Shown in pieces: positions 28,223-52,894 of a stretch of DNA of 53,104 nt. A model generated the notes under the pieces. The model was not told the DNA's origin, ran no database searches, and saw nothing but the letters and a program-made list of their open reading frames with translations. The stretch is from an uncultured bacterium (lineage in GTDB: Bacteria > Bacillota_I > Bacilli_A > Erysipelotrichales > Erysipelotrichaceae), in assembly GCA_903919545.1 (NCBI GenBank), contig CAIXIN010000056.1, positions 1 to 53,104 of the forward strand, given 5' to 3'. Numbering within the stretch: the stretch's first letter is position 1; every line of letters begins with the position of its first letter. The translations under genes were made by a program, and so were the position numbers.

Positions 28223-28250
28223 TATAATATTTTTACCGAAAGCGTTTTCA
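28223..28250 (+). promoter_or_regulatory. -10 box TATAAT (28223-28228) followed by operator CGAAAGCGTTTTCA (28237-28250)
   Basis: Operator lies at the predicted transcription start, upstream of GH16. Confidence 0.7.
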
Positions 28251-28260
28251 GGAGGAACAT

Positions 28261-28977: not shown

Positions 28978-28979
28978 TC

Positions 28980-33478: not shown

Positions 33479-33507
33479 TTGAAAGCGTTTTCGTAATTTG
33501 CTAATAT
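33479..33507 (+). promoter_or_regulatory. Promoter TTGAAA-N17-TAATAT with overlapping operator TGAAAGCGTTTTCG (33480-33493)
   Basis: Boxes and operator read directly; upstream of SBP gene. Confidence 0.75.
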
Positions 33508-33538: not shown

Positions 33539-35146
33539 ATGAAGAAAATTCTACTAGTTGTTATCGCATTAGCATTCATTGGCTCAACTCTAACCGGATG
33601 TTCAAGCTACAAAGCCCTCGATAAAACAATCGAAGGTAGTATCGATGTTATGATGTGGTCCGGCGACGGCACCTACATTGAAGACCTCGGTCACAAAGAC
33701 TTGGCACCGGAAGATCTAAAAGGCCAGAATAACGCATCTGTATATGCAGTCGCTAAAGCCTTCAACGCTATTTATCCGAACGTTAAGATCAACGTTTATG
33801 CTAAATCCGGCGGTCCTGGAACTGCTGCTGAATGGGTTCAAGAAATTGAAAACTTCAAAGTAGACCATGGTAAATATCCGGATCTCTATGCTGCTATGGA
33901 TCTTCCTGGCGATATCGCTCGTGGATTCGTTGCTGACCTATCCGTATTTAGCAGTGACCCTTTATACAAATCATTCAACAAATCCATCTTGGGTATGATG
34001 AACTACTACGGCTTCCAAGCTGGTTTACCACAGTTCTTACAACCTTGGGGTATCTACGTTAATAAAGCATTGGCTGAAGATTATAATATTGAAGTTCCAG
34101 AAGCAAACTGGACCATCGACGAATACACAGATTTCATTACTTCTGCTAAACCTGAAGATGGTTTCTATGGAGCGATGGATGTTGATATCGACATCATTCG
34201 TACTGGTGTTACCACCATCGAACAACAAATGAAGAACTACAGCGGAACCGGCGACTATGTCAACTTGGCTTCCGATGAAGTTAAAGCCTTATTGGACTAT
34301 GTTCCTGAATGGGCTTCAGTTGCTGTTTGGGCACAAAATGATGCAGGCAACGTATCTGGCGACTTTATGAACGCACACTGGTGGTGGGGTCATAAAATGT
34401 TTGCTGACAACGTATTGTTGACCAACGCTGGCGATCCTTGGATGATGGGCGATTGCGCTAATCCAGAAGATCCTTGGGGCGGTTCATGTAAGTCTTCCGA
34501 CTGGGATATCTATCCACGTCCTTCTACAGATTATCAAGACAACACTGTTGGTGTAGTATTAGACCCAATGGCTGTCTACAATCATTGTATGGATGACGGC
34601 GATGCTGCTTGTACAACTGAAGAAAATGCTGCTACAAAATTGGCATATACCTTCACAGCTTTCATGGCTGGCGATACAGCTGCATGGCAGGCAAGAGCTG
34701 ATCAAACATTCTTGGATGGAACAACTGTTAAATCCGCTATGAATGATTCTCTACCTTTCGTTACTGGCAAAGCATTCGACGAACAAATGGAAATCTGGTA
34801 TCAACCAGCCATCCACAATCGTTTTGCTGATGCTGCTAAGATGCCTGGTTGGCACCTGATTCTCGACATCTGGGAAAAAGGTCAAGTATGGGCAATTTCC
34901 GATAAAGCTGCTTTATGGTTCTACACTGAAAATGGCGAAAAGAAAACCATCATCAGCGAATTCCTAAGCATGAATAATCCGGAAATCGCTGGCGCAACCC
35001 GCGTATCCCCAAGCTTCCCGAATGAAGTAAAAGCAAGATTGGCTGATTGGAATACATCCGCTAATGAACGCTTCCAGATCGCTGAAACAGCACTGAGAGA
35101 TGCTTTGAAAGAATTCTACGGCTTCAAAGACGCAGACTTCAAATAA
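33539..35146 (+). CDS. Extracellular solute-binding lipoprotein of an ABC sugar transporter
   Basis: Lipobox LTGC; SBP-like IDVMMWSGDGTYIED, VAKAFNAIYPNVKINVYAK, YGFQAGLPQFLQPWGIYVNKALAEDYNIEVP. Confidence 0.87.
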   Translation: MKKILLVVIALAFIGSTLTGCSSYKALDKTIEGSIDVMMWSGDGTYIEDLGHKDLAPEDLKGQNNASVYAVAKAFNAIYPNVKINVYAKSGGPGTAAEWVQEIENFKVDHGKYPDLYAAMDLPGDIARGFVADLSVFSSDPLYKSFNKSILGMMNYYGFQAGLPQFLQPWGIYVNKALAEDYNIEVPEANWTIDEYTDFITSAKPEDGFYGAMDVDIDIIRTGVTTIEQQMKNYSGTGDYVNLASDEVKALLDYVPEWASVAVWAQNDAGNVSGDFMNAHWWWGHKMFADNVLLTNAGDPWMMGDCANPEDPWGGSCKSSDWDIYPRPSTDYQDNTVGVVLDPMAVYNHCMDDGDAACTTEENAATKLAYTFTAFMAGDTAAWQARADQTFLDGTTVKSAMNDSLPFVTGKAFDEQMEIWYQPAIHNRFADAAKMPGWHLILDIWEKGQVWAISDKAALWFYTENGEKKTIISEFLSMNNPEIAGATRVSPSFPNEVKARLADWNTSANERFQIAETALRDALKEFYGFKDADFK

Positions 35147-35154
35147 TCGTAATT

Positions 35155-35177
35155 AGGCACCTTCGGGTGCCTTTTTT
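35155..35177 (+). terminator. Rho-independent terminator
   Basis: AGGCACCTTCGGGTGCCTTTTTT. Confidence 0.88.
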
Positions 35178-35196
35178 ATGTCTAGATGAGAAATTG

Positions 35197-35238
35197 CGAA
35201 AACGCTTTCTTGATTTATAAGATGAATTTTGATAAAAT
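35197..35238 (+). promoter_or_regulatory. Operator CGAAAACGCTTTCT (35197-35210) plus promoter TTGATT-N17-TAAAAT (35210-35238)
   Basis: Boxes read directly; predicted TSS only a few nt before the GH4 ATG at 35248. Confidence 0.7.
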
Positions 35239-35247
35239 AAATGTATT

Positions 35248-36651
35248 ATGAAAACAAACATAAATACGACTAAAATTGTGGTCATAGGTGCAGGTAGTGC
35301 CTCCTTTGGTTTGGTCAATTTAGGAGCCATTATTCGCCATCCACAACTTAAAGGAATTCGTTTATGTTTGGTTGATATCAATGAATCTGGTCTACAATAC
35401 ATCACTCAATTGGCTCAGAGAATGAATCGTGAATGGAAGGCAGAAATGACCATCACTTCAACCACAGATCGTACTGAGGCTTTGATCGATGCGAATTATA
35501 TAATCTTATCTGTTGCGGTCGATCGTGAAGCCTGTTGGAAAAGCGATGTCGATATCGCACTGAAATATGGAATACGACATTATGGAGAAAACGGTGGTCC
35601 TGGAGCACTGATGCATACAGCGAGAAACATCGCCATCATCATGCCGATCTTAAGGGATATCGAACGATTATGCCCACAGGCAGTTGTCATGAATTTCACG
35701 AATCCTGTGCCTCGTATATGTATCGCCGCAGCTCGTTATACCAAAGTTAAAATGGTGGGTATATGTCATCAGATCGATTTTGGTTATTTGATGGTTGCGA
35801 AGATCTTTCAAGAAGAATATGGATTTAAGGTACCTAAAGATTATCGCTTTACTTGGGAGGGGGATTGGGGGATCTATGGAGACATGGTGAGCCAAGCCAA
35901 AAAGAGATTTATCTTACTGGCTGCAGGGGTCAATCATTTCACTTTCTTCTTATCTCTGATCGATAAACAAACAGGACAAGATCTCTTACCTAAGTTCAAA
36001 GAAAAATTTAAAAATTCTTATCCTGAATTTGAGCCTTATACACGAGAGATCTTATCTACATTAGACATCTTACCTGTATCAGGAGATTGTCATATGTTGG
36101 AATACTTCCCCTTTACTCACAATGAAGCTAAGAAAGCTTGGGAACACTATGATATCCAAATGTATCCTTTGATGAAAGCAGAAGGTGATCGTCACCAGAT
36201 GTGGAGAGAAATCGAAGATTTGGCCTGTGGAAAAGGGTCCATCGATCATCTGCTTCATACCCATACAGAAAGAGCAGAACAGATCATCGTAGCGATGATG
36301 AATGATGAGCCTTATCATGATCAAGCGGTAAATGTGCCTAACCTTGGTTATATCCAAAACTTACCCTTAGATGCCATCGTCGAAGTACCTGCGTCATTTA
36401 TGAAAAATTCGATCAAAGGTGAGACTATAGGAAACCTTCCTGAACTTGCTGCCTTGTGGTGTCGACGTGAAATAGAAAGTGCAGAACTTGCGGTAAAAGC
36501 AGCTGTCAATGGAGATAAAGCTACGCTCCTACAAGCCTTACTCATCAATGGGATGATCGATGATATCCCAAGCGCAAAAGCAATGCTTAAAGATTATCTT
36601 AAAGCCAATACACAGTATCTTCCTCAGTTTAATAAAAAAGGAGAAGCTTGA
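35248..36651 (+). CDS. Glycoside hydrolase family 4 (NAD/metal-dependent)
   Basis: KIVVIGAGSASFGLVNLG, GENGGPGALMHTARNIAIIMPILRDIERLCPQAVVMNFTNPVPRI, GICHQIDFGY, AAGVNHFTFF. Confidence 0.9.
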   Translation: MKTNINTTKIVVIGAGSASFGLVNLGAIIRHPQLKGIRLCLVDINESGLQYITQLAQRMNREWKAEMTITSTTDRTEALIDANYIILSVAVDREACWKSDVDIALKYGIRHYGENGGPGALMHTARNIAIIMPILRDIERLCPQAVVMNFTNPVPRICIAAARYTKVKMVGICHQIDFGYLMVAKIFQEEYGFKVPKDYRFTWEGDWGIYGDMVSQAKKRFILLAAGVNHFTFFLSLIDKQTGQDLLPKFKEKFKNSYPEFEPYTREILSTLDILPVSGDCHMLEYFPFTHNEAKKAWEHYDIQMYPLMKAEGDRHQMWREIEDLACGKGSIDHLLHTHTERAEQIIVAMMNDEPYHDQAVNVPNLGYIQNLPLDAIVEVPASFMKNSIKGETIGNLPELAALWCRREIESAELAVKAAVNGDKATLLQALLINGMIDDIPSAKAMLKDYLKANTQYLPQFNKKGEA

Positions 36652-39554
36652 TGAAACGAATCTCAACTCTGGTCTTATCGTTGTTTCTGAGTTTAAGCTT
36701 ATTAAGCGGATGCCAAAGTGGATCTGCCGTCGAAAACTATAGTGATGGTGAAAGAGACGAAGCTTATTCTTATTTGATTGAAACGCTTAATCAACCTGCT
36801 TTGTTTTATGCGGATTATCTTAAGACTTTAGAGTCAGATTCTTTAGAACTCGAAAAAGAAATAAGTACTGAAGCTTTGGTTTTAGGAGCTTACGCAAGCG
36901 TTGATTTTTCGCTCAATCTTGAAAGCGCTACCACAGCTCAACTTAGAATCTATTATCAAGTTGAAGACGGGACCTTATTATCGCCTATCCTTTCAGTTGC
37001 GATCAATGGGAAGAATCCTTTCGTTGAAGCACTATCGATCGATGTAGCCCTCAATTGGTTCAGTGATACCTCCTCTTTCCCTTTGGATTCATATAAAGAT
37101 GAATCATTACCTCTTCAAACGGTAGATACTTCTATTGTGGCTTTGGATTTCTATGATAATTTACACAGTAGTACTCAACCTTTAAAGTTTGGATTTGAAG
37201 CTGGAGACTCTACTATAAGCTTCACGAATGTTTCTTCTAGTCCAATCAATATCATCAAAGTGGTCTTGATGCCTGTCAATGAGACCCCAAGCTATAGTCA
37301 ATATGCCTCTTCTTTAAGCCTAGAATCTAAAGAAGCCATCTTGACCGATGCGATCCATTATAGTTCTAAGAACTCATCGTTTGTTCGACTCAGCTCTTAT
37401 GGATCTCCATCTGTATCACCTTTCTCAGTCAATACAAAATTACTGAACATCATCGATGGGGTTGCCTGGAATAAATCGGGGCAAGCTGTAAGCTATACGA
37501 TCGACGTAAAAGAAGCTGGAGCGTATGCTTTAGCGGTTCATTATCTCAATGATAAGACTGATTTCCAGGTTTTCCGTTCCATCTTGATTGATGGGAAGAT
37601 CCCATTTCAAGAACTAGAAGCTTATGCCTTTGATTATACAGGTGGAGGTAATTGGGGTGTAGAGCTTATCTCTGATGATCAAAAAGAACCTTACTTGTTT
37701 AATCTAAGTAAAGGAACTCATAAGATTACCTTTATGGCTGAAAATGAACCTTTGGTTCCTTCATTAACGACTATCCGTAATCTGATCGCCCACATCAATG
37801 CCTTTGCCTTAGATATCCGTAAGATCACAGGGAGAGACATCGATCGTAATCGAACATGGAAATTAACGACCTTCTTACCTGAAACAGAAAAGAATCTTAA
37901 TACCTATAAGATCCTTATCAGTCGCTTGGTAAGTGATCTGTCTGTTTACGCCAATAACGGGACATCCTCTTCAGCGCTTTCTTACTTACTTAAAGCCATC
38001 ATGAAACTGGATAAGATGTTGGAAAAACCAGATGAATTGCCTTTGTATTTGGATGATCTATACAGTGCGACTGGATCAGTCACTGAAATGTTGGGCAATA
38101 CCTTGACCACACTTCAAGGCCAAGCCCTTTCATTAGATAGCTTTGCTTTCTATACAGATAAACAACCTTTATTATCCAACGCATCTTTCTTTGATGTTGC
38201 GAATTCAACCGTTTTAGGGTTCATCAATTCCTTTACTTCTAAAAAATACATCGCTAAGAAAGATCCTACTGTACTTAATGTATGGGTCAATCGATCGATC
38301 ACTTATGTCGATACGATGCAGAAACTGGTCGATCAGACTTTTACCCCAGAAACAGGCATCAAAGTAAAGATCTCTGTTATGCCTGATGTCAGTAAATTGA
38401 TTTTGGCCAATGCGACCAATGAAGCACCTGATATTGCCTTAGGATTACCATCCTATATGCCTTATGATTTTGCGATAAGAGATGCCGCTTATCAACTCAG
38501 CTCATTCCCTGATTTCTGGGAAACTGTTGGGAATATGCCTGCTGGATCGATGGTGCCTTATGTCCTCAATGAACAAGTGTATGCAGTTCCTGAAACATTG
38601 GATTTCCATGCGGTTATTTATCGAAAAGACATCTTTGCGAATCTAGATCTTACAGTACCTGACACTTGGCAAGATGTCATAGATATCTTGCCTGAACTTC
38701 AACGTTATGGGATGAACTTCTATCACTTAACGGCTGGAGGAACAGCCTTGAAGTGGTACTATCAGACCAGTCCTTTCGTTTATCAATTTGAAGGCAGTCT
38801 CTATTCTAAAGATGGCTATAGTTCAGCGATCGATAGTCCTGAGACCGTAGCTGGGCTTAAGTTTATGACAGATCTCTTTATCAAATATGCGATTCCTGAA
38901 CAAGTTGCTTCTTTCTATAATGGCTTTAGATTTGGATCATTACCTATCGGTATCACCGATTTTTCAACCTACCTACAAATAAAGAATGCTGCTTCTGAGT
39001 TGACTGGTTTATGGGCGTTAGCGCCTTATCCAGGCATCGAGAATGACCAAGGTGAAGTCTTACGTTGGGACATCGTCAATGGGACAGCAGGCATCATCTT
39101 CAAGAGTACCAAGTATGCGGACAACAGTTGGGACTTTATGAAATGGTGGATATCAACTGAGACCCAAACTTCTTTCGCTTATGCCCTACAATCGACCTAT
39201 GGTCCAGAATATGTATGGTTATCTTCTAATCTAGAAGCAGTTAAGAATGCCCCAATCGATGCGGCAGATAAACGTGTCATGCTTGAACAGTTTACTTGGA
39301 TCAATGACGTGCCTCGTTTACCAGGTGGCTATATGCTAGAACGTGGTCTATCCGACATCTGGAACACCACCGTTTTAGAAGGCACACCAATAAGAGTCGC
39401 CATCGATATGCAGAAGATCAGTATCGATAGAGAAATCAAACGTAAGATGATCGAATTTGGTTACTTAGATACCAATGGGAATGTGATTAAACCTTATATC
39501 GTAAGAGGAGTCGATTGGATCCAAGCTCAAATCGACGCAGCGAAGGAGAACTAA
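36651..39554 (+). CDS. Very large (about 967 aa) solute-binding lipoprotein: N-terminal carbohydrate-binding-like domains fused to an ABC SBP domain
   Basis: Lipobox LLSGC; CBM-like [22 protein letters not shown]...[12 protein letters not shown]-terminal [26 protein letters not shown]...[19 protein letters not shown]...[16 protein letters not shown]. Confidence 0.85.
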
Positions 39555-39555
39555 G

Positions 39556-40494
39556 ATGAACATCGTTAAACGTGTACGACGAGTCTTTATCGAAAAGGCT
39601 GGTGAATCTACTTTCAATGATTACCTAACGATCTTCTTATTGCTTCTGCCTTATGCTTTATTGTTTTCTTTGTTTGTAGCTATACCTGTAGCCTTAGCGA
39701 TTGGTTTATCATTAACTTACTTTAATACGATACAGGTTCCTGAATTTAAAGGCTTCCTCAACTATATTATGCTTTTGACTCAAGATGAAGTCTTCTTAAA
39801 ATTTGTCTTACCTAACACCTTTAAGTACGCCTTGATTATTGGACCAGGCGGATACTTCTTATCGTTTATCTTGGCTTGGATGTTGGCTCAGATTACCCCT
39901 AGGATGAGGACGATCATCGCCTTGGCTTTGTATACTCCATCGATGGTTGGTGGTGTCTTTATTTCAGTCGTATGGAGAACCTTGTTTTCAGGAGATGAAG
40001 CAGGATACATCAATGCGACACTGATGCAATGGGGATGGATCGTAAGACCCATTCAGTTTCTACAATCCCCACAATATTTAATGAACATCATGATCATTGT
40101 TGGATTATGGTCTGCGATGGGGATAGGCTTCCTTGCGATGTTGGCAGGGATACTGAATACCAACGAAGAACTGTATGAAGCAGCCTATATCGATGGGATC
40201 AAGAATAAACTTCAAGAAGTTATCTATATCACGATTCCTTCGATGAGAAGCCAAATGCTCTTTGGAGCGGTTATGGCCATCGTTGGGGCTTTCAATAGTG
40301 GTTGGATCGGAGTTGCCTTATCAGGCACCAATCCTACACCTCAATATTCAGGTCAATTGATCATCAATCATATTGAAGATTATGGCTTTATACGATATGA
40401 GATGGGATATGCTGCAGCTGTATCAGTGGCTTTGCTTTTGATCATTTGGGGTTTTTCTAAAGTAGCTTACCGCTTGTTTGGAGAAAGGGACTAA
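39556..40494 (+). CDS. Sugar ABC transporter permease (MalF/UgpA type)
   Basis: Six or so [33 protein letters not shown] (EAA loop). Confidence 0.92.
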
Positions 40495-40495
40495 T

Positions 40496-41365
40496 ATGGC
40501 ATTCCAAGGCACTAAAATCAATCCTAAGCGTTTTGATAAGTCTCAGCTTAAATTCTATGCAGTCTTAGTTCCTATGGCTTTATTTATGGTCTTACCTGTC
40601 ATATACATCGTCAATCAAGCGTTTAAACCACTCGATGAACTCTTTATGTTTCCCCCAAGATTCTTCGTCATCAAACCTACACTAAAGAACTTCACTGATC
40701 TCTTTAGGACTGCGTCTACGACAGGGGTCCCTATGAGCCGATACTTATTCAATTCGATCATCGTCACCGTAGTCACTGTCTTAGCGAATATCTTGATTAC
40801 GGCTGCGAGTGCTTATGTCTTATCCAAGAAGAAATTCAAACTTAAAAAGAAACTCTTTGCCTTAAATCAGATCGCATTGATGTTTGTGCCTATCGCTGTA
40901 GCGATTCCTCGTTTCTTGATCATCAAGAACGTAGGATTAAGCGATAACTTCTTGGCTCACATCATTCCTTTATTGGCCATGCCTATTGGTCTATTCTTAG
41001 TGAAACAGTTTATGGATGATATACCGGATGCCCTCATCGAAGCCGCAAAACTAGATGGGGCCAATGATTTCCAGATCCTATTAAAGATCGTTATGCCTTT
41101 GGTTAAACCAGCGCTTGCGACGGTAGGTATCTTGACCTTCCAAGTGGTATGGAATGCGACAGAAAGCTCTAGTTTATACATCTCAGATGAAACCTTAAAA
41201 ACCTTTGCCTTCTATCTTAATACTTTGACCTCATCATCTAACACCATTGCGGGGGCAGGGATGTCTGCAGCTGCAGGTTTGATCATGTTCTTACCTAATC
41301 TCATCATCTTTATGTTGCTTCAGTCTAAGGTCATGAACACCATGAGCCATTCTGGGATCAAGTAG
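40496..41365 (+). CDS. Carbohydrate ABC transporter permease (MalG/UgpE type)
   Basis: Start revised to ATG 40496; [30 protein letters not shown] (EAA loop). Confidence 0.93.
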
Positions 41366-41373
41366 GAGGCACT

Positions 41374-43422
41374 ATGAAAAAAGCACGTTCATTCTTGATT
41401 CTTCTGCTTGTATTATTTAGCTTTACTTTATCGGTAAGTGCCTCTTCAGCGACTTCTCCTACACGAACCCTAGACTTTAAATTTAACTTGGTTTGGACTC
41501 AAGATGCTTATCTTCCTCAACTAACAGTAACCAATCTAGGATTAAAGAATCCTCAAGATATGGCTATGGATGATCAAGATCATCTCTATATCGTAGATAA
41601 GGAACATCAACGTGTCGTAGAATACGATACGACAACGGACACCATCGTACGTGTATTAGCCTATGAAGGATTCTCTGGTCCTGCGGGCATCTTCTTGGCT
41701 CAAAACGGAGACATCTATGTGGCTGATCCTACCGCAGAAGCCATCTTTAGATTCAATCATGCGGGAGACTATATTGAACAATTCGATCGTCCTACCACGG
41801 CTTCTTTCGGTGATACGCCTTATAAACCATCCAAGGTCGCCGTCGATAATCGAGGTAATCTCTATGTCCAATCTGAAGGGGTCTATAATGGGATCATTCA
41901 GCTCTCCAACTCAGGGGAATTCTTAGGATATTTTGCCTCCAATAAAGTAAAACTCAATATCCTACAAATGCTTCAGGATATGTTTTTCACCGATGAACAA
42001 AAAGAAACCTTGACTGGTAGAGTCCCGACTACTTTCTCTAATCTATTCATGGATAAAGACGGGATCCTATATTCAACCACGATGGGTGGCACCTTAAGCT
42101 TCATGATGCATGGGCTTAAGAAACACAACACTGCTGGACAAGATATGTTTGCGGATCGTTTTATCTGGGGGTTCAGTGATTTCTCAGACATCACGGTTGA
42201 TAAAGATGGGATCATTTATGTGACCACTAAAACGGGTCAGATCTTTGCCTATACCAATGAAGGAGAATTCATCTATTTCTTTGGATCTCGTTATTCTGAA
42301 TCAGACATCGCGGGTCTATTTACCTCGCTTGTATCTATCGCAGTAGATTCAAAAGGCAATCTATGGGCACTTGATTCAGAGAAGTCCTTTATCCAATCCT
42401 TTAAACCAACTGAATATGCCTTAAGCATCTATCAAGCGACCAAGCTCTTTACTGAAGGTCGATATGATGAAGCCACCGTCGTATGGGAAAGCGTCTTACG
42501 TTTGAATCAAATGTCGGTCGTAGCCCATAACGGGATCGGTGCCAACCTAATGTATCAAGAACGCTATGAAGAAGCCATGGTTCATTTTGAAGTTGCGGGT
42601 AATCGATACGCTTATTCTGATGCCTATTGGGAAGTAAGAAATAAGTGGTTACAAACCAATTTAAGCACCATCTTAGCTTCGTTATTGGGTCTGTTCCTCC
42701 TACTTACTTTTGGGGGAAGATTGTTTAAAAAGACCAAAGCCTATGCCTTCTTAAAGAAAGAAAAGAATGCTTTCTTAAGTCTACGTTTCATCTCGGATCT
42801 TCTTCTATTCCTGAAAGTCATGAGGCATCCAATCGATACCTTCTATGACTTGAAAGATAAGTCAAAAGGATCAGTCATAAGTGCGATCGTAGTTTACTTA
42901 GGATTCTTTGGGATCTTTATTTGGTATACCTTAGGGAAAGACTTTATCTATCAGTTCTTATTGGTGGAAGACATCGATATGAATGCGATCGTCATAGGAT
43001 TCTTCTCCTTGACCTTATTGTTTGTCTTATGTAATTACTTGGTCTCATCGATCAATGATGGGGAAGGTGGTTTCGTCGATCTATTTAAAATGATGGCCTA
43101 TAGTTTTGGGCCTATGATGATTGGGTATATCTTGATCATAGGGCTCTCCTATATCTCTACCAACAATGAAGCATTCTTCCTATCGACGATTGAACAAGTC
43201 GCCATGATTTGGACCGGAACGAATTTATTCTTAGGTATACAAGAAGTTCATAACTATGAAACCAAGGCAGCATTTAAGAGCTTGGTGATGACGATCTTAT
43301 TTATGGTTCTGATTGCGGTTGTATTACTGATCGTCATCCTTATGACTGAACAGGTCTATATGTTCTTTGAAGCCATCATCAAGGAGGCACTACGCAATGC
43401 GAATTTTCTAAGAAAAGCTTGA
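41374..43422 (+). CDS. Secreted/membrane NHL-repeat beta-propeller protein with TPR-like segment and C-terminal YIP1-like membrane domain
   Basis: NHL repeats (NPQDMAMDDQDHLYIVDKEHQRVVEYD; GPAGIFLAQNGDIYVADPTAEAIFRFN; VAVDNRGNLYVQ), TPR-like AHNGIGANLMYQERYEEAMVHFEVAGN, then four to five TM segments. Confidence 0.8.
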   Translation: MKKARSFLILLLVLFSFTLSVSASSATSPTRTLDFKFNLVWTQDAYLPQLTVTNLGLKNPQDMAMDDQDHLYIVDKEHQRVVEYDTTTDTIVRVLAYEGFSGPAGIFLAQNGDIYVADPTAEAIFRFNHAGDYIEQFDRPTTASFGDTPYKPSKVAVDNRGNLYVQSEGVYNGIIQLSNSGEFLGYFASNKVKLNILQMLQDMFFTDEQKETLTGRVPTTFSNLFMDKDGILYSTTMGGTLSFMMHGLKKHNTAGQDMFADRFIWGFSDFSDITVDKDGIIYVTTKTGQIFAYTNEGEFIYFFGSRYSESDIAGLFTSLVSIAVDSKGNLWALDSEKSFIQSFKPTEYALSIYQATKLFTEGRYDEATVVWESVLRLNQMSVVAHNGIGANLMYQERYEEAMVHFEVAGNRYAYSDAYWEVRNKWLQTNLSTILASLLGLFLLLTFGGRLFKKTKAYAFLKKEKNAFLSLRFISDLLLFLKVMRHPIDTFYDLKDKSKGSVISAIVVYLGFFGIFIWYTLGKDFIYQFLLVEDIDMNAIVIGFFSLTLLFVLCNYLVSSINDGEGGFVDLFKMMAYSFGPMMIGYILIIGLSYISTNNEAFFLSTIEQVAMIWTGTNLFLGIQEVHNYETKAAFKSLVMTILFMVLIAVVLLIVILMTEQVYMFFEAIIKEALRNANFLRKA

Positions 43423-45751
43423 AAAGCGTGGGTATCACGCTCTTCGTTTTGATTCTATCGATTCAAGTCATTGTGGCTGTGTATATCCCAACGGCTCATG
43501 ATACAAAGCTTCCTCCAGAAGCGATCTCTTATGTGATCTCAGATCCTACAGATTACGAACTCTTGACTGAAACAGAGAATTTTAAGTATTACTTTAAAGA
43601 TTCAAGAGATGTATTAAGCATCGTCGATAAAAGAAATGGATATACCTGGAAGACAGGACTAGATGTAGAATTCAATACAGTTTTAGAAGATGCCTGTGAT
43701 TTGGTTCCTGAAGCAGATCAGATCAATTGTGAACCTATCGAAGATAGAATGAATACTACCTATATCGGGATCGCTAACTCATTGATCACGATCGAATATT
43801 ATGATTCGACCAATGCGATCAAACGTAAATCGAGCGCATCTAAAGATGGGGTAGATAGTACCCTAGTTAAAGTAGATGGGAAAGACAATGTGTTTAGATT
43901 GGATGTGAACTTCAAAGATCTCGACATCGAGATCAAAGTCCATATCACTTTAGATGATAAAGGCTTTACTTTAGACATCAACGATGAAGACATCACAGGA
44001 GATGGACAATCCATCTTGGCTGCGATCATGCTGACACCGTTCTTAGGGGCCTCTGGAGGACAAAAACTCTATTGGGATCCTGCGCGTAACAATTTCAAAA
44101 GAGAAGTACCTAGTGAGATGATCGATGGTTATGTGTTTGTTCCTGATGGACCAGGCGCATTGATTCGCTTTGTCGATAGAAACATCGGACTAAGTCCTTA
44201 TGTAAGCAAGATCTATGGTGAAAACCCTGCAGAAGCAGAATACTATTACACTGTAGCTGGGAATCATTTACCACTTAAACAAGCAGTGATGCCTGTTTAT
44301 GGGGTCGCCCATGGGAATAGACAAGCAGCCTTTGTGGCCTTTGCGACCCAAGGTGCAGGCAATATGAAGATCCTAGTATCACCTGAAGAAGACATTACTT
44401 ATTACACTATGCTTATACCCGTTTTGAATACAATAGAATATTCTTCCAAGTTTACAATAAACGAGGTGATGGATTCTTTACCTCGATGGAAGAAAGACGT
44501 CATTTTGATGTCTCGATGACATATCAATTCTTAGCCAATGATACAGATCGTCCTGCAGATTATGTAGGGATGGCATTAACTTATCGTGATTATCTTTTGG
44601 ATAATGATGGATTACCTCAACAGATCTCTTCGTCAAGTGACGTCGGTATTCGTTTAGACTTCGTTATGGCTGACATCAAGAAAAGTGTCTTGGGTCTAGA
44701 AGATGTCATTGTCACCACAGCTAAAGACGTAGGAAATATCCTGACTCAACTCGAAACCGATGGGATCAAAAACATCAACAGTGGATTACTGGGCTGGCAA
44801 GCAGGTGGGATCACCAATGGACATCCAGGAACGACGAATTTCTCCTCGGCGATTGGTTCATCTACTGCATTTAAATCACTCCTTGAATTGGCTTCATCCT
44901 ATGACTATGATGTCTCCTTTAGTCAAAACTACGCAGCCATCAATAAGAAACAAGTCAACTATCAGACCTCAGCCGCTCGTCATATGAACAGCTGGTATAT
45001 TGAGACGCGTGTATCCAACGATTATCCGATCTCAGTCTTAGGTATCGCTAAACCTAGTAAATCAGCAGTGTGGTTAAAGACACAATCAGATAAGCTCATC
45101 AAATTGGGCGTAAGTTCCTTGACCATCGATGGGATCTCCAATATCCTGACCTCAGATTATGATGCGGGTACGACCAGTATCGATGAGACCATCGAGCTTT
45201 ATACAACAGCACTAGGAAAAATCGATCCTACAGTGATGATCGCTATGCAAGCTCCAAATGATTACCTATGGAAGTATGTAGACCGTTATCTAAACGCTCC
45301 TGTTTTCTCAAATCAATTCTTGATTGAGACAGATACAGTACCTTTCTTACAGATGGTTTTAAACAATCGTATGGAAATGTATGCACCTTATTCTAATTTC
45401 TCTTTCTATACTCAGAAAGATATCTTAAGAATGATCGACTATAACCTTTATCCTTCCTTCGCTTTATCTCAACAACCTGCTTATAAATTAGCCTTAACGA
45501 ATTCTAATCGATATTACTCAACCGAATTCAAAGAATATGAACCTCTCATCAAGAGTATCTATTCTGAAGTGAATTTGGTCTTACGTGAAGTCAGTGGAAA
45601 AGATTGGATCGATAGAACGGTCGTTGAGAATGGTGTTATCTTGAATACCTATTCTGATGGGACCAAAGTCTTAATCAACTATACCGAAGATGCGCTTAGC
45701 TATGGAGATCAACTCGTAAGAGCCTTATCGGCCGTTGTGGTGAAGGAGTAA
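43419..45751 (+). pseudogene. DUF5696-like protein, apparently one gene split by a -1 frame change near 44503-44506 (ORFs 43419-44519 and 44486-45751)
   Basis: Two overlapping ORFs continue one another (..SLPRWKKDVI | FDVSMTYQFLAND..ADYVGMALTYRDYLL). Adding one T to the TTTT run joins them in frame. Both halves are otherwise open. Confidence 0.7.
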
Positions 45752-45753
45752 TC

Positions 45754-46773
45754 ATGAAAAAAGAAGCAAAGATCAAGAAAGTTAAGAAATCAAAGAAAAA
45801 CAAAGGCTTTAAAGAAATAAGCAATCGTTCTGGTTATAAGTTCTTTATGCCTTGGTTGATTGGGTTCATTATCTTTACTGCTTTCCCCTTCATATATACG
45901 ATCTACCTCAGTTTTAGTTCAGTAAGATTGACCGTGTTAGGTTGGGAAACGACCTTCAACGGGATCGCCAATTACGTCACCGCTTTATTGAGAAATACGA
46001 GTTATACCCCAGCCTTGGTTCAGTTCTTTCTCGCTGAAGTCATTTATGTGCCTGTCATCATCACTGTGGCTTTGATTTTAGCCATTCTAATGAATGGGGA
46101 CTTCAAGTTTAGAACTTTGTTTAGAGTCATCTATTTCTTGCCTGTTATCGTTATTTCAGGATCAGTAATGACCCAGTTGATGAGTACAGGTTCTGTTCAG
46201 ATTGGGAATGTAAGAGGGGTCTTTATCTTTCAGATCTTAGAAAGCTATTCACCTATCTTAGCCGATCTGGTCATCTTCTTATTCAATAATTTCGCCATCG
46301 TATTATGGTTTAGTGGGATTCCTATCGTCTTATTCTTGAATGGACTTCAAAAGATCAATACCCAGTTGTTTGAAGCAGCCCAAATCGATGGCGCTACAGG
46401 ATGGCAGATCTTATGGAAGATAACCTTACCGATCATACGACCCATCATCTTGGTTTCAACCATCTTTACGATCGTTCAGTTGGGGATGTTTCCAATCAAC
46501 CCAGTTTATGGGATGATCCAAAATGCGATCTTTGATACAGTAGCTGGTTTAGGTTTAGCTTCTGCTTATGCATGGATCTATTCATTCCTAGTGTTGATAC
46601 TCTTAGGGGTTGCCTTCTTATTGTTGAAAGATCATTCTAAAGATTATGCCTATGTGGATGTTGTTCGTCTACAAAACGAGAAACTCGAAAAGATGAGAAA
46701 AAGAGTTCGACGTCAACAAGAATGGAATGCTTTCTTTAGAAAGCAAAAAGGAGTCAAACATGGAAAGCATTAA
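45754..46773 (+). CDS. Sugar ABC transporter permease (MalF type), second pair
   Basis: TM segments; TQLFEAAQIDGATGWQILWKITLPIIRPI (EAA loop). Confidence 0.92.
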   Translation: MKKEAKIKKVKKSKKNKGFKEISNRSGYKFFMPWLIGFIIFTAFPFIYTIYLSFSSVRLTVLGWETTFNGIANYVTALLRNTSYTPALVQFFLAEVIYVPVIITVALILAILMNGDFKFRTLFRVIYFLPVIVISGSVMTQLMSTGSVQIGNVRGVFIFQILESYSPILADLVIFLFNNFAIVLWFSGIPIVLFLNGLQKINTQLFEAAQIDGATGWQILWKITLPIIRPIILVSTIFTIVQLGMFPINPVYGMIQNAIFDTVAGLGLASAYAWIYSFLVLILLGVAFLLLKDHSKDYAYVDVVRLQNEKLEKMRKRVRRQQEWNAFFRKQKGVKHGKH

Positions 46774-47719
46774 ACGTTTCATTCCAATTCTAAAAAAGAA
46801 GTTATTAGGACACAACATCAGTGATGGACTTGTCTATAAAACAGCCGTTTATGTGCTGCTGATTGCGATCGCTTATGTGTTTCTATATCCTTTGTTTAGA
46901 ATGGTGTCCTATAGTTTCATGTCGACCAAAGACATCATCAATCCAGAGATCGACTGGTTACCAATACATCCTACACTTTTGAATTTAAAAATTGCCTGGG
47001 AAGTAATGAGTATGCCTTGGACCTTATTAAATTCAATGTGGTTTGCGGGAACCTTAGCTCTGGCTCAGACCCTTATCTCTGCCTTAACAGGTTACGCCTT
47101 TGCGCGTTATGAATTTAAGTTTAAGAACTTTTGGTTCATGATGGTTTTATTATCGTTTGTTATACCTATTCCAGTTGTATTGATTCCTCGCTGGATGATG
47201 TTCTCATCGGCTCAAAACATTCTTCAATTCAAGATCATAGGGACTGTAATACCTCAGCTTCTATTGGCCATCGCTGGTCAAGGGGTCTATTCAGCCATCT
47301 TGATCTTGATCTTCTATAATTTCTTTAAGATGATTCCTGTAGTGCTAGACGAAGCCGCTAAGATCGATGGGGCAAGTAATTTCCAAGTCTTTTATCACAT
47401 CATCTTAAAGATGTCTGTGCCTACCATCATTACGGTTTTCTTATTCGCTTTCGTTTGGAACTACAATGAGACTTATGTGACAGGGACCTTTGTTCGTCAA
47501 GCACTTAAACTGATGCCTGGTCAATTGGGACTCTTTGACTCGATCTTCTCTGATAAAGTAGCTGTCATTCCTGGTGCTCCAGGAGGTGTCTTTAGATTAA
47601 GTGAATCCTATAAGATGGCTGCGACGATGATCACGATGGCTCCTATGATGATCATGTATTTCTTCGTTCAGAAACAATTCGTTGAAGGTATTGAAAAGAC
47701 TGGGATCACTGGAGAGTAA
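46760..47719 (+). CDS. Carbohydrate ABC transporter permease (MalG type), second pair
   Basis: Start revised to ATG 46760; PVVLDEAAKIDGASNFQVFYHIILKMSVPTI (EAA loop). Confidence 0.93.
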   Translation: MESIKRFIPILKKKLLGHNISDGLVYKTAVYVLLIAIAYVFLYPLFRMVSYSFMSTKDIINPEIDWLPIHPTLLNLKIAWEVMSMPWTLLNSMWFAGTLALAQTLISALTGYAFARYEFKFKNFWFMMVLLSFVIPIPVVLIPRWMMFSSAQNILQFKIIGTVIPQLLLAIAGQGVYSAILILIFYNFFKMIPVVLDEAAKIDGASNFQVFYHIILKMSVPTIITVFLFAFVWNYNETYVTGTFVRQALKLMPGQLGLFDSIFSDKVAVIPGAPGGVFRLSESYKMAATMITMAPMMIMYFFVQKQFVEGIEKTGITGE

Positions 47720-47720
47720 A

Positions 47721-48725
47721 ATGGATCATATTAGAGCCGTTAACTTAGGTGGTTGGTTGGTGCTTGAGCATTGGATGAGACCTACGCTCTTTGAAGGTAT
47801 CAATGGTTATGATGAGACTCAATTCTCGCTTCAAGCCAAAGACCTTAAGAAACAACTGGATGATCATCGAGAGACCTTCATCGATGAATCTGATTTTAAA
47901 TGGATCAAAGACCATGGATTGAATTGTGTAAGATTACCTTATCCTTATTGGTTATTTGGAGATATTGAACCTTATTATGGCTGTGTCAATAAACTCGATC
48001 AGATCATGGATTGGGCACAGAAGTACGATCTCAAAGTACTCTTAGATCTACATACAGCCCAAGGTTGTCAAAATGGATTCGATAATGGTGGTCAATTAGG
48101 CATCATGACCTGGCACACCAAAGCAGAGAATATTGAACACACACTTCAGATCTTAGAAAAAGTAGCCTTAAGATATAAAGATCATCCTGCTTTATGGGGG
48201 ATGGAAATACTAAATGAACCTCATTGGACCTTAGAGATCTCGTTGATCGAGAAGTTTTATAGTGAAGCTTATGTTCGATTAAGAAAGATCTTAAAGCCAT
48301 CTACGGAGCTTGTTTTTCATGATGCTTTTAGAGCGACGGTTTGGAAAGACTTCTTAAAAGATAAAGAGAAGGTAATCTTAGATCTTCATCTTTATCAAAG
48401 CTTCGATGAGAAGTTTAGACAGAATGATCTTGTCTATAATGTGAAGTTTCCTTTAGAAGGCTATGAAGAGAAGTTTAAAGAGATTTCTACTTATGCCCGT
48501 TGTATCATCGGTGAATGGTCCTTGGGACTAGATCCTAAAGTGATCGATCATCTAGATAAATTTAACCAAGACCTAGGATTAAGAGCGCTTGCGGATACTC
48601 AGTTATTGGCCTTTGAGAAGGTCTATGGATGGGTCTTCTGGAACTATAAGATTGAAGACCAAGACTCAGGATGGAACTTTAAACGCCTCGTAGAAAGGGG
48701 AATACTGCCTCATGATTATCGTTAA
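47721..48725 (+). CDS. Glycoside hydrolase family 5 (exo-beta-1,3-glucanase-like), no signal peptide
   Basis: Start at ATG 47721; AVNLGGWLVLEHWMRPTLFEG, HGLNCVRLPYPYW, WGMEILNEPHW, CIIGEWSLGLD. Confidence 0.9.
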   Translation: MDHIRAVNLGGWLVLEHWMRPTLFEGINGYDETQFSLQAKDLKKQLDDHRETFIDESDFKWIKDHGLNCVRLPYPYWLFGDIEPYYGCVNKLDQIMDWAQKYDLKVLLDLHTAQGCQNGFDNGGQLGIMTWHTKAENIEHTLQILEKVALRYKDHPALWGMEILNEPHWTLEISLIEKFYSEAYVRLRKILKPSTELVFHDAFRATVWKDFLKDKEKVILDLHLYQSFDEKFRQNDLVYNVKFPLEGYEEKFKEISTYARCIIGEWSLGLDPKVIDHLDKFNQDLGLRALADTQLLAFEKVYGWVFWNYKIEDQDSGWNFKRLVERGILPHDYR

Positions 48726-50502
48726 AAAAATATTGGTCATCGTCTTGATGACCATCACTTTGGTGTCTTGTAAAAAAGAACCTGAAGTCATCTTGACTCC
48801 TTTAGAAGAAAAACTGGCTTCGATGACACTGGATGAAAAACTGGGTCAAATGGTTCAAGCTGAACGTTACTCAGTTGATGCCACTAAAGTAAAGAACACC
48901 AATATGGGCTCTGTCTTATCAGGTGGAGGATCTCATCCTAGCCCAAATACCGTTGAAGGATGGTTGGCTTTGACAGGTGGTTTGAATGATGGTTCTTTAT
49001 CAGGTTCTGCAGAACTTCCTTTACTCTATGGGGTAGATGCGGTTCATGGACATAATAATCTTAAAGGTGCAGTTCTTTTTCCTCATAATATTGCCTTAGG
49101 GGCAACACATGATGAGGATCTTCTTGAACGTATTGGTAAAGCTACTGCGATCCAACTCAAAGCGACTGGGGTCTCATGGGACTTTGCGCCTTGTTTAGCG
49201 GTCGTTCAAGATGTTCGTTGGGGTAGAACCTATGAATCCTATTCAGAGGATCCTCAGCTTGTTTCTAGCTTAGGTGCAGCGTTTATCAAAGGTCTACAAT
49301 CAGAAAAGATCATGGCTACTGCCAAACATTATTTAGCGGATGGTGGTACTGATTTCGATGAGACTAAAAACAACTATATGTTGGATCAAGGCAATGTCAC
49401 CTTAAGCGAAGCTGAGATTCGTGAGCTTCATTTGCCTCCTTATATCGCAGCGATAGAAGCCAATGTCTTAAGTGTAATGGTGTCTTTTAGTTCCATAGAT
49501 GATGATAAGATGCATGCCTCTACCTATTGGATCACAGATGTCTTAAAGACAGAACTTGGATTTAAAGGGGTAGTTGTCTCAGATTGGGAAGCCATTCATC
49601 AATTACCAGGATCTCTTCTTAATCAGGTCAGTGCTTCAGTGAATGCTGGCGTAGATATCTTAATGGAACCTAACGCTTGGAGAGATGTCTTAAGTACTTT
49701 AAAAAGAGCAGTAGAAAACGATATGATCCCAATGAGCCGTATCGATGATGCGGTCATGAGAATACTTTACGTCAAAGATGAATTGGGTCTAGAAAACATG
49801 GGCAGTGCTCAACTTGACTATGAAGGTGATAAAGCCTTAGCAAGAGAAGCCGTTGCGAAATCTCAGGTCCTTCTACTCAACAAAGGTGTTTTACCTCTAC
49901 AAAAAGAAGTGGATATCTTATTGATAGGTCCTGGAGCTGATAATGCGGGTCTACAAAATGGAGGTTGGTCCTTCTCATGGCAAGGTGAGACTACAGGTGT
50001 GAATTTCCCTAATGCGACAACCTTATTAGATGCCTTTAGAGAAGTCGCTGACGCCAATGGAGGACATATTTATACTGATCTAAAAGATGCCTCAAAAGCA
50101 GACATCGTTGTCTTGGTTTTAGCGGAAGTGCCTTACGCAGAAGGTATAGGTGATACCTCTGATCTTAGCTTAACAGGTGCTTTAGCTCATGAGGGCAACG
50201 CAGATGCGATCAGACAAGCAGAAATGACCAAGAAACCTATTTTGACCTTACTAATGACAGGAAGACCTGTATTGATCGAAGAGTATGTGGATAAGTGGGA
50301 TGCGATCGTTGCGAGCTGGTTGTTTGGGACAGAAGCACAAGGTGTAACGGATGTCTTATATGGTGATGTGCCTTTTACAGGAACCTTGAGCTTTACTTGG
50401 CCTAAGACTGTAGAAGCCAATTTGACTTCATCTAATAACCCAAATCGAGATTTTATGAAGGTTCATTACGATATAGGATATGGATTGATTACTTCTAATT
50501 AA
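48712..50502 (+). CDS. Glycoside hydrolase family 3 lipoprotein (beta-glucosidase/glucan hydrolase)
   Basis: Lipobox LVSC; LASMTLDEKLGQMVQAER, YGVDAVHGHNNLKGAVLFPHNIALGAT, FAPCLAVVQDVRWGRTYESYSEDPQLV, GVVVSDWEAIHQ. Confidence 0.94.
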   Translation: MIIVKKILVIVLMTITLVSCKKEPEVILTPLEEKLASMTLDEKLGQMVQAERYSVDATKVKNTNMGSVLSGGGSHPSPNTVEGWLALTGGLNDGSLSGSAELPLLYGVDAVHGHNNLKGAVLFPHNIALGATHDEDLLERIGKATAIQLKATGVSWDFAPCLAVVQDVRWGRTYESYSEDPQLVSSLGAAFIKGLQSEKIMATAKHYLADGGTDFDETKNNYMLDQGNVTLSEAEIRELHLPPYIAAIEANVLSVMVSFSSIDDDKMHASTYWITDVLKTELGFKGVVVSDWEAIHQLPGSLLNQVSASVNAGVDILMEPNAWRDVLSTLKRAVENDMIPMSRIDDAVMRILYVKDELGLENMGSAQLDYEGDKALAREAVAKSQVLLLNKGVLPLQKEVDILLIGPGADNAGLQNGGWSFSWQGETTGVNFPNATTLLDAFREVADANGGHIYTDLKDASKADIVVLVLAEVPYAEGIGDTSDLSLTGALAHEGNADAIRQAEMTKKPILTLLMTGRPVLIEEYVDKWDAIVASWLFGTEAQGVTDVLYGDVPFTGTLSFTWPKTVEANLTSSNNPNRDFMKVHYDIGYGLITSN

Positions 50503-50517
50503 TATCGTTAACACATG

Positions 50518-50545
50518 AAAACGGGGTCTATAGACCCCGTTTTAT
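50518..50545. terminator. Strong terminator at end of glycan operon
   Basis: AAAACGGGGTCTATAGACCCCGTTTTATT. Confidence 0.88.
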
Positions 50546-50572: not shown

Positions 50573-52894
50573 TTACTTAGAATCTTGTTTTTTCCTCGAT
50601 ATAAAGCCTAAACCTAAGCCGATACCTAAGATCCACATCCAATAGGACTCAACTCCGGTATCAGGGAGTTCTTCTTTGAAACTCGCTTTTAAGACGATAG
50701 ATTCACCTAATGAAGTGTTGAAATCAAAGGGATTATCTTCCTCATCTAGCCACTTATCAAAGACAAAGCCTTCTAGTTTAGGATCATCTATTGGGCTTAC
50801 AGTTGAGTTAGGATCGATGATAACTACTCCTAATAAGGTTCCATCTGTCCCAGTAAAATCGATACGAACCAAGCCTGGATTGAAGGTCGCATAACCATCA
50901 TTGAATTCACTATAAATGAACCAATGATCTAGTCCTGTAAAATCAAAGCCTTCATAAGCAGTCTTTAACATCATTTCAGTCGTCGTTTTACCGACACCCA
51001 TTCCAGAATTATTGGTTACTGTAGTTAAGGTTGAATCATAGTATACATGAGAGTAAGTATAATTTGATGTGGAAATTATCCAACCCATAATAGGGTCTGT
51101 TTTATTTGGATCAGTAGGATTAGGATTCTCATCATCATGGATCATAGCCAATTTTCCTGCATAGTAAACATCAGTAAGACTAATAATATTGACATAATCT
51201 ATTAAGTGAGCCCCGCCAATGAGCCCTCCAATACCAACAGAATTATAAGTATAGTGGATGTTTGCGCGTACGTAAGATTCTGTGATGTTAAGTGTATCGT
51301 TATCGTCGTAGCTGACGATGGATCTTCCAATAAAACCACCACCGAAATAACCATTCACGTAGATATCGCCTAAAACGATTGCATGATCAATGCTTGTCTT
51401 TGTGTCTAGTCGACCAGAAATTCCACCAACGAAGCTTTCACCATGAATTTCTCCATCGAAAGTAACGTTTTTGAGACTGGTTAAAGTACCGTAGGTAATG
51501 ACCCCTATGATCCCACCAACGTTACTTGTAGCAACGATCGACGCATTAGTGACTGTGGCTTGATCGATGGACATGGTGTATACGGCACCAATCAATCCAC
51601 CGATGACGGCGTCACCACTGATGTCTATGTTTTTTATATTGATAATCGCTTCACTAGAACTGGTTATCAATTGTCCAGCCAATGAACCAATCGATTGACT
51701 ATTATCCTCTGAGGAAGTTTCACTAAATATAAAACCATCAATATTTACAACTCCTTTAAAATTGATGTTTGTCCCATAAGCGATAACACCACCAAAATTT
51801 GAATTGCTATTTTGAGTAGATTTTATCGATAAGGTCATGATCCTAACATTTTCAAAAATAAGATTTGACCCATTCCCTATTATCCCTCCAACACGATAAA
51901 ATCCTTGAACTACGACATCATTTAGTCCTGCTTCATAAATATGGTTGCTTACTGAACTATTGTATTTTCCTATGAGACCTCCTACATTCACAAAACCTTT
52001 GACGCTAGCATTTCTTGTTGTATTGTCAAGAAAGATCGATCTATAAGCACTCGTAAAATCAGTTTCGGTGGAGTAAAGCCCAACGATACCTCCTACATAG
52101 ATTTCATCCCAATCATAAATGATAAAATCCGAAGTAAAAGCTAGATCAGCTGATTCATAGATATTGGACTGAAAAAGCGTATCAACTGCGTTACCAACAA
52201 AGCCGCCTATAGCCATATCTCCATCAAAATCATAATAACCTTCATATTGTAAATTGAAATTGACTCCCATATCTAAAATGACAGTATTGTTAGAGATCAT
52301 GGAAGGATTAGTGGGGTCATTATCACCGATGACTTCCCCAATCATACCTCCAACGGTACGATGAACACTCACCAAAGCATCGAGTCGATATGTCACATCC
52401 ATCGTTCCTTTGATGGTGACATGATCGATCAATAGTTTTCCACCTTCTTCAACTTTAGCGAAACCAGCTAAAGCCCCAATATAGAACTCTGGATCCGTTA
52501 CGATGACTGAGATATCGACAAAACTCATCGATAAATCCGTAATCGTTGCCCCACCTAATCCATAGAATAATCCAAGAGATACAAAGTCAGAAGAAACATC
52601 TAAGACATCGATCGTTAATCCTGAGATATCATGTTCATTCCCGTCGAATGTCCCGCTAAATAGATGAGTCCCTGATGTTCCTAAAGCAGTCCAGTTCTCA
52701 CCACTGAGATCTAGATTGTTCATTAGGATATAGGAATCATCCCAATCCCCAACGGTTCCGATTGCTTTAAGATCATCGACTGTGAAGATCTGCCAAGGAT
52801 CTAGTGGAGTTCCACTCCCTAAGGCAGAGACATTCATTTTTTGATTCCCAATCATAAGCCATAAAGATAAAATGAGGATTATTATTTTTCTCAT
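50573..52894 (-). CDS. GLUG-motif-repeat cell-surface protein with InlB-type C-terminal repeat and LPDTG sorting signal
   Basis: Repeated VGGIIG/IGGLIG/VGGISG turns; GTPLDPWQIFTVDDLKAIG; C-terminal LPDTGVESYWMWILGIGLGLGFISRKKQDSK; N-terminal signal peptide. Confidence 0.87.
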   Translation of the reverse strand: MRKIIILILSLWLMIGNQKMNVSALGSGTPLDPWQIFTVDDLKAIGTVGDWDDSYILMNNLDLSGENWTALGTSGTHLFSGTFDGNEHDISGLTIDVLDVSSDFVSLGLFYGLGGATITDLSMSFVDISVIVTDPEFYIGALAGFAKVEEGGKLLIDHVTIKGTMDVTYRLDALVSVHRTVGGMIGEVIGDNDPTNPSMISNNTVILDMGVNFNLQYEGYYDFDGDMAIGGFVGNAVDTLFQSNIYESADLAFTSDFIIYDWDEIYVGGIVGLYSTETDFTSAYRSIFLDNTTRNASVKGFVNVGGLIGKYNSSVSNHIYEAGLNDVVVQGFYRVGGIIGNGSNLIFENVRIMTLSIKSTQNSNSNFGGVIAYGTNINFKGVVNIDGFIFSETSSEDNSQSIGSLAGQLITSSSEAIINIKNIDISGDAVIGGLIGAVYTMSIDQATVTNASIVATSNVGGIIGVITYGTLTSLKNVTFDGEIHGESFVGGISGRLDTKTSIDHAIVLGDIYVNGYFGGGFIGRSIVSYDDNDTLNITESYVRANIHYTYNSVGIGGLIGGAHLIDYVNIISLTDVYYAGKLAMIHDDENPNPTDPNKTDPIMGWIISTSNYTYSHVYYDSTLTTVTNNSGMGVGKTTTEMMLKTAYEGFDFTGLDHWFIYSEFNDGYATFNPGLVRIDFTGTDGTLLGVVIIDPNSTVSPIDDPKLEGFVFDKWLDEEDNPFDFNTSLGESIVLKASFKEELPDTGVESYWMWILGIGLGLGFISRKKQDSK

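Follow-up and report, generated by a model that had tools for sequence, protein, structure and literature searches.

An ATP-binding cassette (ABC) glycan importer is usually described as a solute-binding protein (SBP), two permeases and an ATPase. The contig CAIXIN010000056.1 (53,104 nucleotides, hereafter the window), from the 2.03-Mb draft of an Erysipelotrichaceae-type metagenome-assembled genome (G000, assembly GCA_903919545.1), raises the question of what else such an importer may contain. In its operon at 35248-50502, two MalF-MalG permease pairs flank an NHL propeller/Yip1 membrane protein and a member of the DUF5696 family, an order that a preliminary description of the sequence had reported and that our domain calls (Pfam and NCBIfam models) confirm. 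We read the region, with a probability of about 0.6, as a beta-glucan utilisation locus organised around a conserved cassette of two CUT1 ABC importers, one of which (block B) has dedicated accessory subunits. It is an even call whether ABC glycan importers of this kind form an architecture of their own, with DUF5696 and the propeller-Yip1 protein as dedicated structural subunits of MalF2-MalG2, usually accompanied by a second importer with a giant SBP. A physical association of the two proteins with the transporter and their role in transport are what we infer from the evidence below. The conserved components in the window are the following.

33539-35146, + strand: SBP2, second solute-binding lipoprotein, 535 aa, eighth conserved component (phmmer against solved SBPs)
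36648-39554, + strand: SBP1, giant solute-binding lipoprotein, 968 aa, block A (PF01547)
39556-40494, + strand: MalF1 permease, block A (PF00528; EAA loop intact)
40478-41365, + strand: MalG1 permease, block A (PF00528; EAA loop intact)
41374-43422, + strand: NHL propeller/TPR-like/Yip1 membrane protein, block B (PF01436, PF04893)
43419-45751, + strand: DUF5696 protein, glycoside hydrolase family (GH) 129 fold, predicted pseudo-glycosidase, block B (PF18952 on both halves; open reading frames (ORFs) 43419-44519 and 44486-45751)
45754-46773, + strand: MalF2 permease, block B (NCBIfam MalF/GlcT/UgpA matches; EAA loop intact)
46727-47719, + strand: MalG2 permease, block B (PF00528; EAA loop intact)

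The association of these genes is conserved well beyond the window. The DUF5696 profile, run against 85,000 species genomes, identified 80 loci, in which the order was read with one hidden Markov model per core gene. SBP1-MalF1-MalG1-NHL/Yip1-DUF5696-MalF2-MalG2 are found in identical order and on the same strand in 80 of the 80 contigs retrieved with DUF5696: 48 carry complete cassettes and 32 incomplete ones running into contig ends (one of the latter, L052, shows an inverted segment at the contig end). These loci originate from Erysipelotrichia, Acholeplasma/Izemoplasma, Lachnospiraceae, Oscillospiraceae and Anaerolineae, and the full order is also present in 36 of 37 further Bacilli loci. 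Of the 392 Bacilli genomes sampled from GTDB, 49 have a strong DUF5696 match; 48 of these encode NHL/Yip1, which none of the 343 others does (Fisher p 4e-61). The weak DUF5696 matches of four genomes (G182, G031, G356 and G028) are genuine GH129-like enzymes that do not belong to the module, and were excluded. PF18952 was identified in 22 of 251 genomes of a Chloroflexota sample and in 27 of 300 genomes of a sample drawn around a Lachnospiraceae genome. The preliminary description had proposed that NHL/Yip1 and DUF5696 are accessories of the importer, and the neighbourhood comparison supports this: the linkage with MalFG permeases is kept, neither protein lies apart from permeases in the 80 contigs, and NHL/Yip1 is never without DUF5696 in the 392 genomes. 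No paper describing NHL/Yip1 with an ABC transporter, or a DUF5696 cassette, was found in the open-access literature searched, and the novelty of the cassette is bounded by that search.

Could this linkage simply reflect genes of unrelated function that move horizontally as one cassette? Annotated copies are carried by plasmids of Butyrivibrio fibrisolvens and Paenibacillus cellulosilyticus, in the standard order, and a genome can carry several (one from Lachnospiraceae has six). However, the seven core genes hold their order over phyla whereas LacI and the glycosidases diverge freely (Spearman ~0.3-0.7 compared to 0.76-0.87 within the core), and this, together with the absence of NHL/Yip1 wherever DUF5696 is lacking, makes such an explanation highly improbable. 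The window's own genome includes a second, divergent cassette (G000:C140, L260:3753-12365), which begins SBP2-SBP1-MalF1-MalG1-NHL/Yip1-DUF5696 and is cut by the contig end.

The sequence features of a CUT1-type importer are all present: MalF/MalG pairs with an EAA loop, a carbohydrate SBP and a MalK-type ATPase with an OB domain. Pfam BPD_transp_1 recognizes three of the permeases, while MalF2 falls below the Pfam threshold. The EAA loop is the contact of a permease to its ATPase. The EAA-DG loop is kept in all four permeases (98-112 aligned sequences of each) and both pairs should therefore be powered. A loss of the loop in MalF2, suggested by a first regular expression that missed 25 sequences, was rejected because the alignment shows it intact, with S for G in 19. 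A single MalK-type ATPase gene was detected in G000 (PF17912, OB domain), away from the operon, as in shared-ATPase systems. An ATPase cluster is present within the operon in 7 relatives, and ugpC lies inside the Paenibacillus operon. SBP_bac_1-type SBPs, EAA-bearing MalF/MalG pairs and an ATPase encoded elsewhere are shared with the CUT1 importers MalEFGK2 and MsmEFGK (with its shared MsmX/MsmK/UgpC ATPase). Unlike these, the cassette has two permease pairs, two SBPs, an SBP of ~970 aa and two dedicated accessory proteins; we know of no CUT1 system with NHL-TPR-Yip1 or DUF5696 accessory proteins.

With which of the two permease pairs are the accessory proteins associated? Most loci of the sample of Clostridia and Chloroflexota have the standard order. 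One clade of this sample, however, carries NHL/Yip1-DUF5696-MalF2-MalG2 without SBP1-MalF1-MalG1 (L209, L210, L213, L227-L234, L236 and L238), and SBP1-MalF1-MalG1 is found apart at L249, L252 and L258. Where the blocks are unlinked, the genome nevertheless encodes both, and full cassettes are also present in the same genomes. In L221 and L246 the order of the blocks is swapped, still within one operon. The break always falls between MalG1 and NHL/Yip1. Pairwise divergences over 65 complete loci, analysed by partial correlation, lead to the same grouping: values are 0.24-0.34 within block A (SBP1-MalF1-MalG1), and block B shows 0.33 for NHL/Yip1 with MalG2, 0.30 for MalF2 with MalG2, 0.23 for DUF5696 with MalG2 and 0.20 for NHL/Yip1 with both DUF5696 and MalF2. 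DUF5696 with MalF2 (0.06) is the sole low pair of block B. Since the break point and the divergence grouping agree, NHL/Yip1 and DUF5696 appear to belong with MalF2-MalG2. The two blocks are not independent, because the partial correlations of SBP1 with NHL/Yip1, DUF5696 and MalF2 are ~0.2.

In three loci (L152:10824-12674, L159:7227-9119 and L174:8300-10186) MalF2 and MalG2 are apparently fused in one frame of ~620 codons. The A/B split, this fusion and the divergence grouping together suggest two importers, the accessory proteins accompanying the second. The preliminary description had also raised a heteromeric four-permease complex. In such a supercomplex MalF1, MalG1, MalF2 and MalG2 would be bridged by NHL/Yip1 and DUF5696, in agreement with the adjacency of the pairs in nearly all loci, in one operon even when swapped, and with their four intact EAA loops. 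We nevertheless regard it as rather unlikely and do not favour it: A-only and B-only loci are unlinked in one clade (though blocks of one genome could still assemble), a B-like remnant exists without A, only MalF2 and MalG2 are fused, and the partial correlations are mostly weaker between blocks than within them.

The binding proteins are unusual in both size and number. SBP_bac_1 (PF01547) spans only residues 555-840 of SBP1's 968, and a ~500-residue N-terminal extension is conserved in all homologues aligned. SBP2 has no Pfam match; phmmer relates it to solved SBPs (22hh, E 8e-10; 6hur, E 3e-5). Its homologue lies immediately upstream of SBP1 in 69 of the 75 related loci whose contigs extend far enough to show it; additionally, in L027 the C-terminus of SBP2 is visible upstream. 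The apparent absence of SBP2 in L081 was an antisense-ORF artefact. In the window, the SBP2 gene is placed under the same operator type as the cassette operon, outside the bounds 35248-50502. SBP2 is the eighth component of the import system, and its divergence tracks NHL/Yip1 and MalG2 most closely (0.82 and 0.81), fitting block B best. The start of the unit at 35248, as previously proposed, agrees with the operator and the terminator; SBP2, part of the system, had been overlooked. L240:10498-17499 and L241:13031-19899 contain tandem arrays of five SBP2-profile genes directly after MalG2, as if many binding proteins were served by one permease.

The NHL/Yip1 protein exhibits a signal peptide-like helix (residues 6-24), an NHL and TPR-like region, a transmembrane (TM) segment (430-448) and a C-terminal Yip1 TM bundle. 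This bundle is common to the eukaryotic Yip1 family (PF04893), from which the bacterial Yip1 differs by its extracellular NHL/TPR partner, either joined to it in one protein or specified by a neighbouring gene. One entire cassette subtype has NHL/TPR and Yip1 as distinct genes side by side, a natural fission that leaves the same parts on two proteins (L136, L138, L140, L142, L145, L148, L149, L151, L154, L155, L163, L167, L207 and L208). A role of Yip1 in import is not described in the open-access papers searched. The propeller and TPR outside and the TM bundle inside form a receptor-like layout, and the folds resemble glycan-binding ones, so that NHL/Yip1 and DUF5696 might instead constitute a surface glycan sensor controlling expression or transporter activity from outside the translocation complex; glycan sensing had been suggested in the preliminary description. 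Such a sensor seems improbable, since neither protein has a recognizable kinase, anti-sigma, cyclase or HTH domain, the LacI regulator and the common operator already serve regulation, and in the unlinked clade both proteins stay strictly with MalF2-MalG2 and not with regulators.

The DUF5696 gene of the window is interrupted by a one-base frameshift. Both halves match PF18952 (107.7 and 343.6 bits, gathering cut-off 25.6), whereas relatives have a single ORF of 739-805 aa. DUF5696 is intact in the sister locus L025 (97% identical), relative to which the window is one base short near 44.4 kb (44300-44560); the sister contig G001:C14 shows 97% nucleotide identity to the window over 8.4 kb. An assembly error could account for the gap, as could a genuinely broken allele. 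A programmed frameshift was rejected because the sister and the relatives have one open frame, of which the window lacks one base. Of the secreted DUF5696-like protein announced in the preliminary description, the family assignment therefore holds and the single intact gene does not, and its GH129-type fold had been missed.

A model of DUF5696 built from 82 aligned sequences reaches a pLDDT of 94 and a pTM of 0.93 (an earlier 7-sequence model, pLDDT 45, was discarded). Its nearest Foldseek neighbours are a GH129 3,6-anhydro-D-galactosidase and NagBb, followed by GH101 and GH36; the match to 5opq (E 1.5e-28, TM-score 0.72 by target length) places it in the GH129/GH101 fold. A Foldseek search of viral structures yielded no informative match. 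The relationship is also apparent at the profile level, when DUF5696 is compared with four genuine GH129-like proteins (E 3.5e-14). The catalytic residues of NagBb, which we take to be the nucleophile D435 and the acid/base E478 and which were located in the alignment, are invariant in the genuine GH129-like proteins compared. The nucleophile column of DUF5696 contains D in 42, E in 9 and another residue in 31 of the 82 sequences, and none of columns 598-632, the acid/base region, is mostly acidic in this set. DUF5696 thus has an overall fold in common with the GH129/GH101 alpha-N-acetylgalactosaminidases and 3,6-anhydro-D-galactosidase (5wzn, 5opq and 8rzk), with sequence homology detectable over the beta-sandwich and the start of the barrel. 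It differs from them in its unconserved nucleophile, the absence of an acid/base carboxylate, its N-terminal anchor and its position inside an ABC import cassette. Judging from the model and the alignment, it is probably a pseudo-enzyme that has kept the fold and not the catalytic pair, suggesting a glycan-binding or structural role.

An active extracytoplasmic glycosidase related to GH129/GH101, trimming oligosaccharides before import with NHL/Yip1 as its anchor or chaperone, would also be compatible with the GH129-type fold, with the Asp of the nucleophile column in those 42 sequences and with operons rich in glycosidases. We give it little chance: many members from intact cassettes carry S, G, T, A or other residues in place of the nucleophile, no acid/base carboxylate is conserved, and DUF5696 accompanies enzymes for beta-1,3-glucan, beta-1,2-glucan and pectin, which ill suits one conserved alpha-type glycosidase.

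Several observations weigh against a cassette of two importers with dedicated accessory subunits. Half of the DUF5696 members, the window protein included, retain the nucleophile Asp; the acid/base position was mapped by profile alignment and topology, with no superposition, and some DUF5696, possibly including the window's subfamily, might be active through an unconventional acid/base. SBP2 is undetected or placed elsewhere in several loci. In the exceptional genome G101 (L173), MalF2-MalG2 are preceded by a 339-aa C-terminal half of DUF5696 (L173:9404-10423), between GH30 and GH16-CBM6 genes, with LacI nearby and without NHL/Yip1. The accessory set is therefore not absolutely obligatory; this is the sole loss of the NHL/Yip1 gene seen. 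Finally, genetic linkage is also compatible with co-regulation alone.

How might such a system operate? In the two-importer arrangement, block A would comprise SBP1 and MalF1-MalG1, and block B MalF2-MalG2, SBP2, NHL/Yip1 and DUF5696. Oligosaccharides produced by cell-surface enzymes would be captured by SBP1 and SBP2 and fed to MalF1-MalG1 and MalF2-MalG2. The propeller and TPR-like segment of NHL/Yip1 would lie outside the cell and its Yip1 bundle in the membrane, while DUF5696, membrane-anchored or secreted, would have largely lost its catalytic residues. DUF5696 and the propeller may sit on MalF2-MalG2 as an extracytoplasmic collar for docking or guiding, holding long or branched glycans and the SBP, with Yip1 clamping this collar to the permease. 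A shared ATPase would power uptake via both permease pairs, the imported glycans would be cut inside the cell, and substrate specificity would be set by the SBPs and the exchangeable enzymes.

Which glycan is concerned is suggested by the genes around the cassette, listed below with their control elements.

27192-28187, + strand: LacI-family regulator, likely binding the three operator copies (PF00356)
28261-33460, + strand: co-regulated GH16 (laminarinase-like), GH3 and GH2 genes (PF00722, PF00933, PF02836; operator at 28238)
35155-35172, + strand: terminator between SBP2 and GH4 (z -5.25)
35196-35209, + strand: operator-like palindrome GCGAAAACGCTTTC, LacI/CcpA type (further copies 28238-28251 and 33481-33494)
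35248-36651, + strand: GH4 glycosidase, NAD-dependent family (PF02056/PF11975)
47682-48725, + strand: GH5 glycosidase (PF00150)
48712-50502, + strand: GH3 lipoprotein-like beta-glucosidase (PF00933/PF01915)
50518-50543, + strand: operon terminator hairpin, 11 pairs (-17.8 kcal/mol, z -5.69)

The operon starts downstream of the 35155 terminator, at the 35196 palindrome. The eleven packed or overlapping same-strand ORFs previously described between an operator at about 35.2 kb and a terminator at 50.52 kb (+ strand, spacing 1-8 nt or overlapping) were recovered by their coordinates, the palindrome and the 50518 hairpin; the gene count is ten, not eleven, once the frameshift is corrected, because DUF5696 is one gene split over two ORFs. 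The palindrome has 3 matches compared to 0.22 expected, a number reached in 0 of 100 shuffles, and its copies precede GH16-GH3-GH2 (28238), SBP2 (33481) and the GH4-led operon (35196). Because it recurs at three sites, the 28.2-50.5 kb region reads as a single regulon beside the LacI regulator. LacI genes are neighbours in 49 of 122 related loci. GH4 is variable and outside the core, occupying position -1 in only 3 related loci.

As expected of a polysaccharide utilisation locus, GH16, GH3, GH2, GH4, GH5 and GH30 enzymes, an importer and LacI are co-located with the three operator copies. By their families, the window enzymes (laminarinase-like GH16, two GH3, GH5, GH30, GH2 and GH4) would fit beta-1,3/1,6-glucan. 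Neighbours in the 122 related loci include GH16 (47), GH3 (36), GH144-like PF10091 (22), GH5 (18), GH94 (15), GH35 (15) and GH30 (14), and elsewhere pectate lyase with GH106, GH43, or flavin monooxygenases lie beside the cassette. Since the flanking enzymes vary among loci, the import cassette appears generic and the enzymes exchanged. Gram-positive polysaccharide utilisation loci such as that of Blautia producta for mixed-linkage glucan likewise group an endo-glucanase, an ABC importer, an intracellular glycosidase or phosphorylase and a regulator; the Blautia importer comprises a single SBP, a single permease entry and an ABC subunit and, in contrast to the window locus, no NHL/Yip1 or DUF5696 is named for it (PMC10318527).

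On the Paenibacillus cellulosilyticus plasmid (L262, NZ_CP054609.1), glycosidases are replaced by four LLM flavin-dependent oxidoreductases and aldo/keto reductases beside the cassette, with an NADPH-dependent oxidoreductase and ugpC also present. This setting presumably recalls sulfoquinovose or alkanesulfonate monooxygenase loci, and the cargo of the cassette may not always be a plain glycan. A ~1070-aa protein without significant Pfam match recurs in 17 loci (L043-L141, e.g. L049:16514-19720), always two to three genes downstream of the cassette and on the same strand. In the window, a 773-aa secreted protein (50573-52894, - strand) is convergent to the operon; it has repeated GGLIG-like segments, a C-terminal ELPDTG followed by a TM segment and a basic tail (sortase-anchor type), and no Pfam match.

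That two proteins of unassigned role accompany a single permease pair in at least two phyla, and with several types of glycan, provides a concrete, testable function for DUF5696 and bacterial Yip1-domain proteins. In DUF5696 a catalytic fold would have been reused as a transport component. Given its copies in rumen and gut Clostridia, bacteria that lack an outer membrane may commonly take up bulky glycans through the cassette. Should it indeed be a distinct importer architecture, it would correspond, in Gram-positive bacteria and Chloroflexota, to the apparatus with which Bacteroidota capture glycans at their surface.

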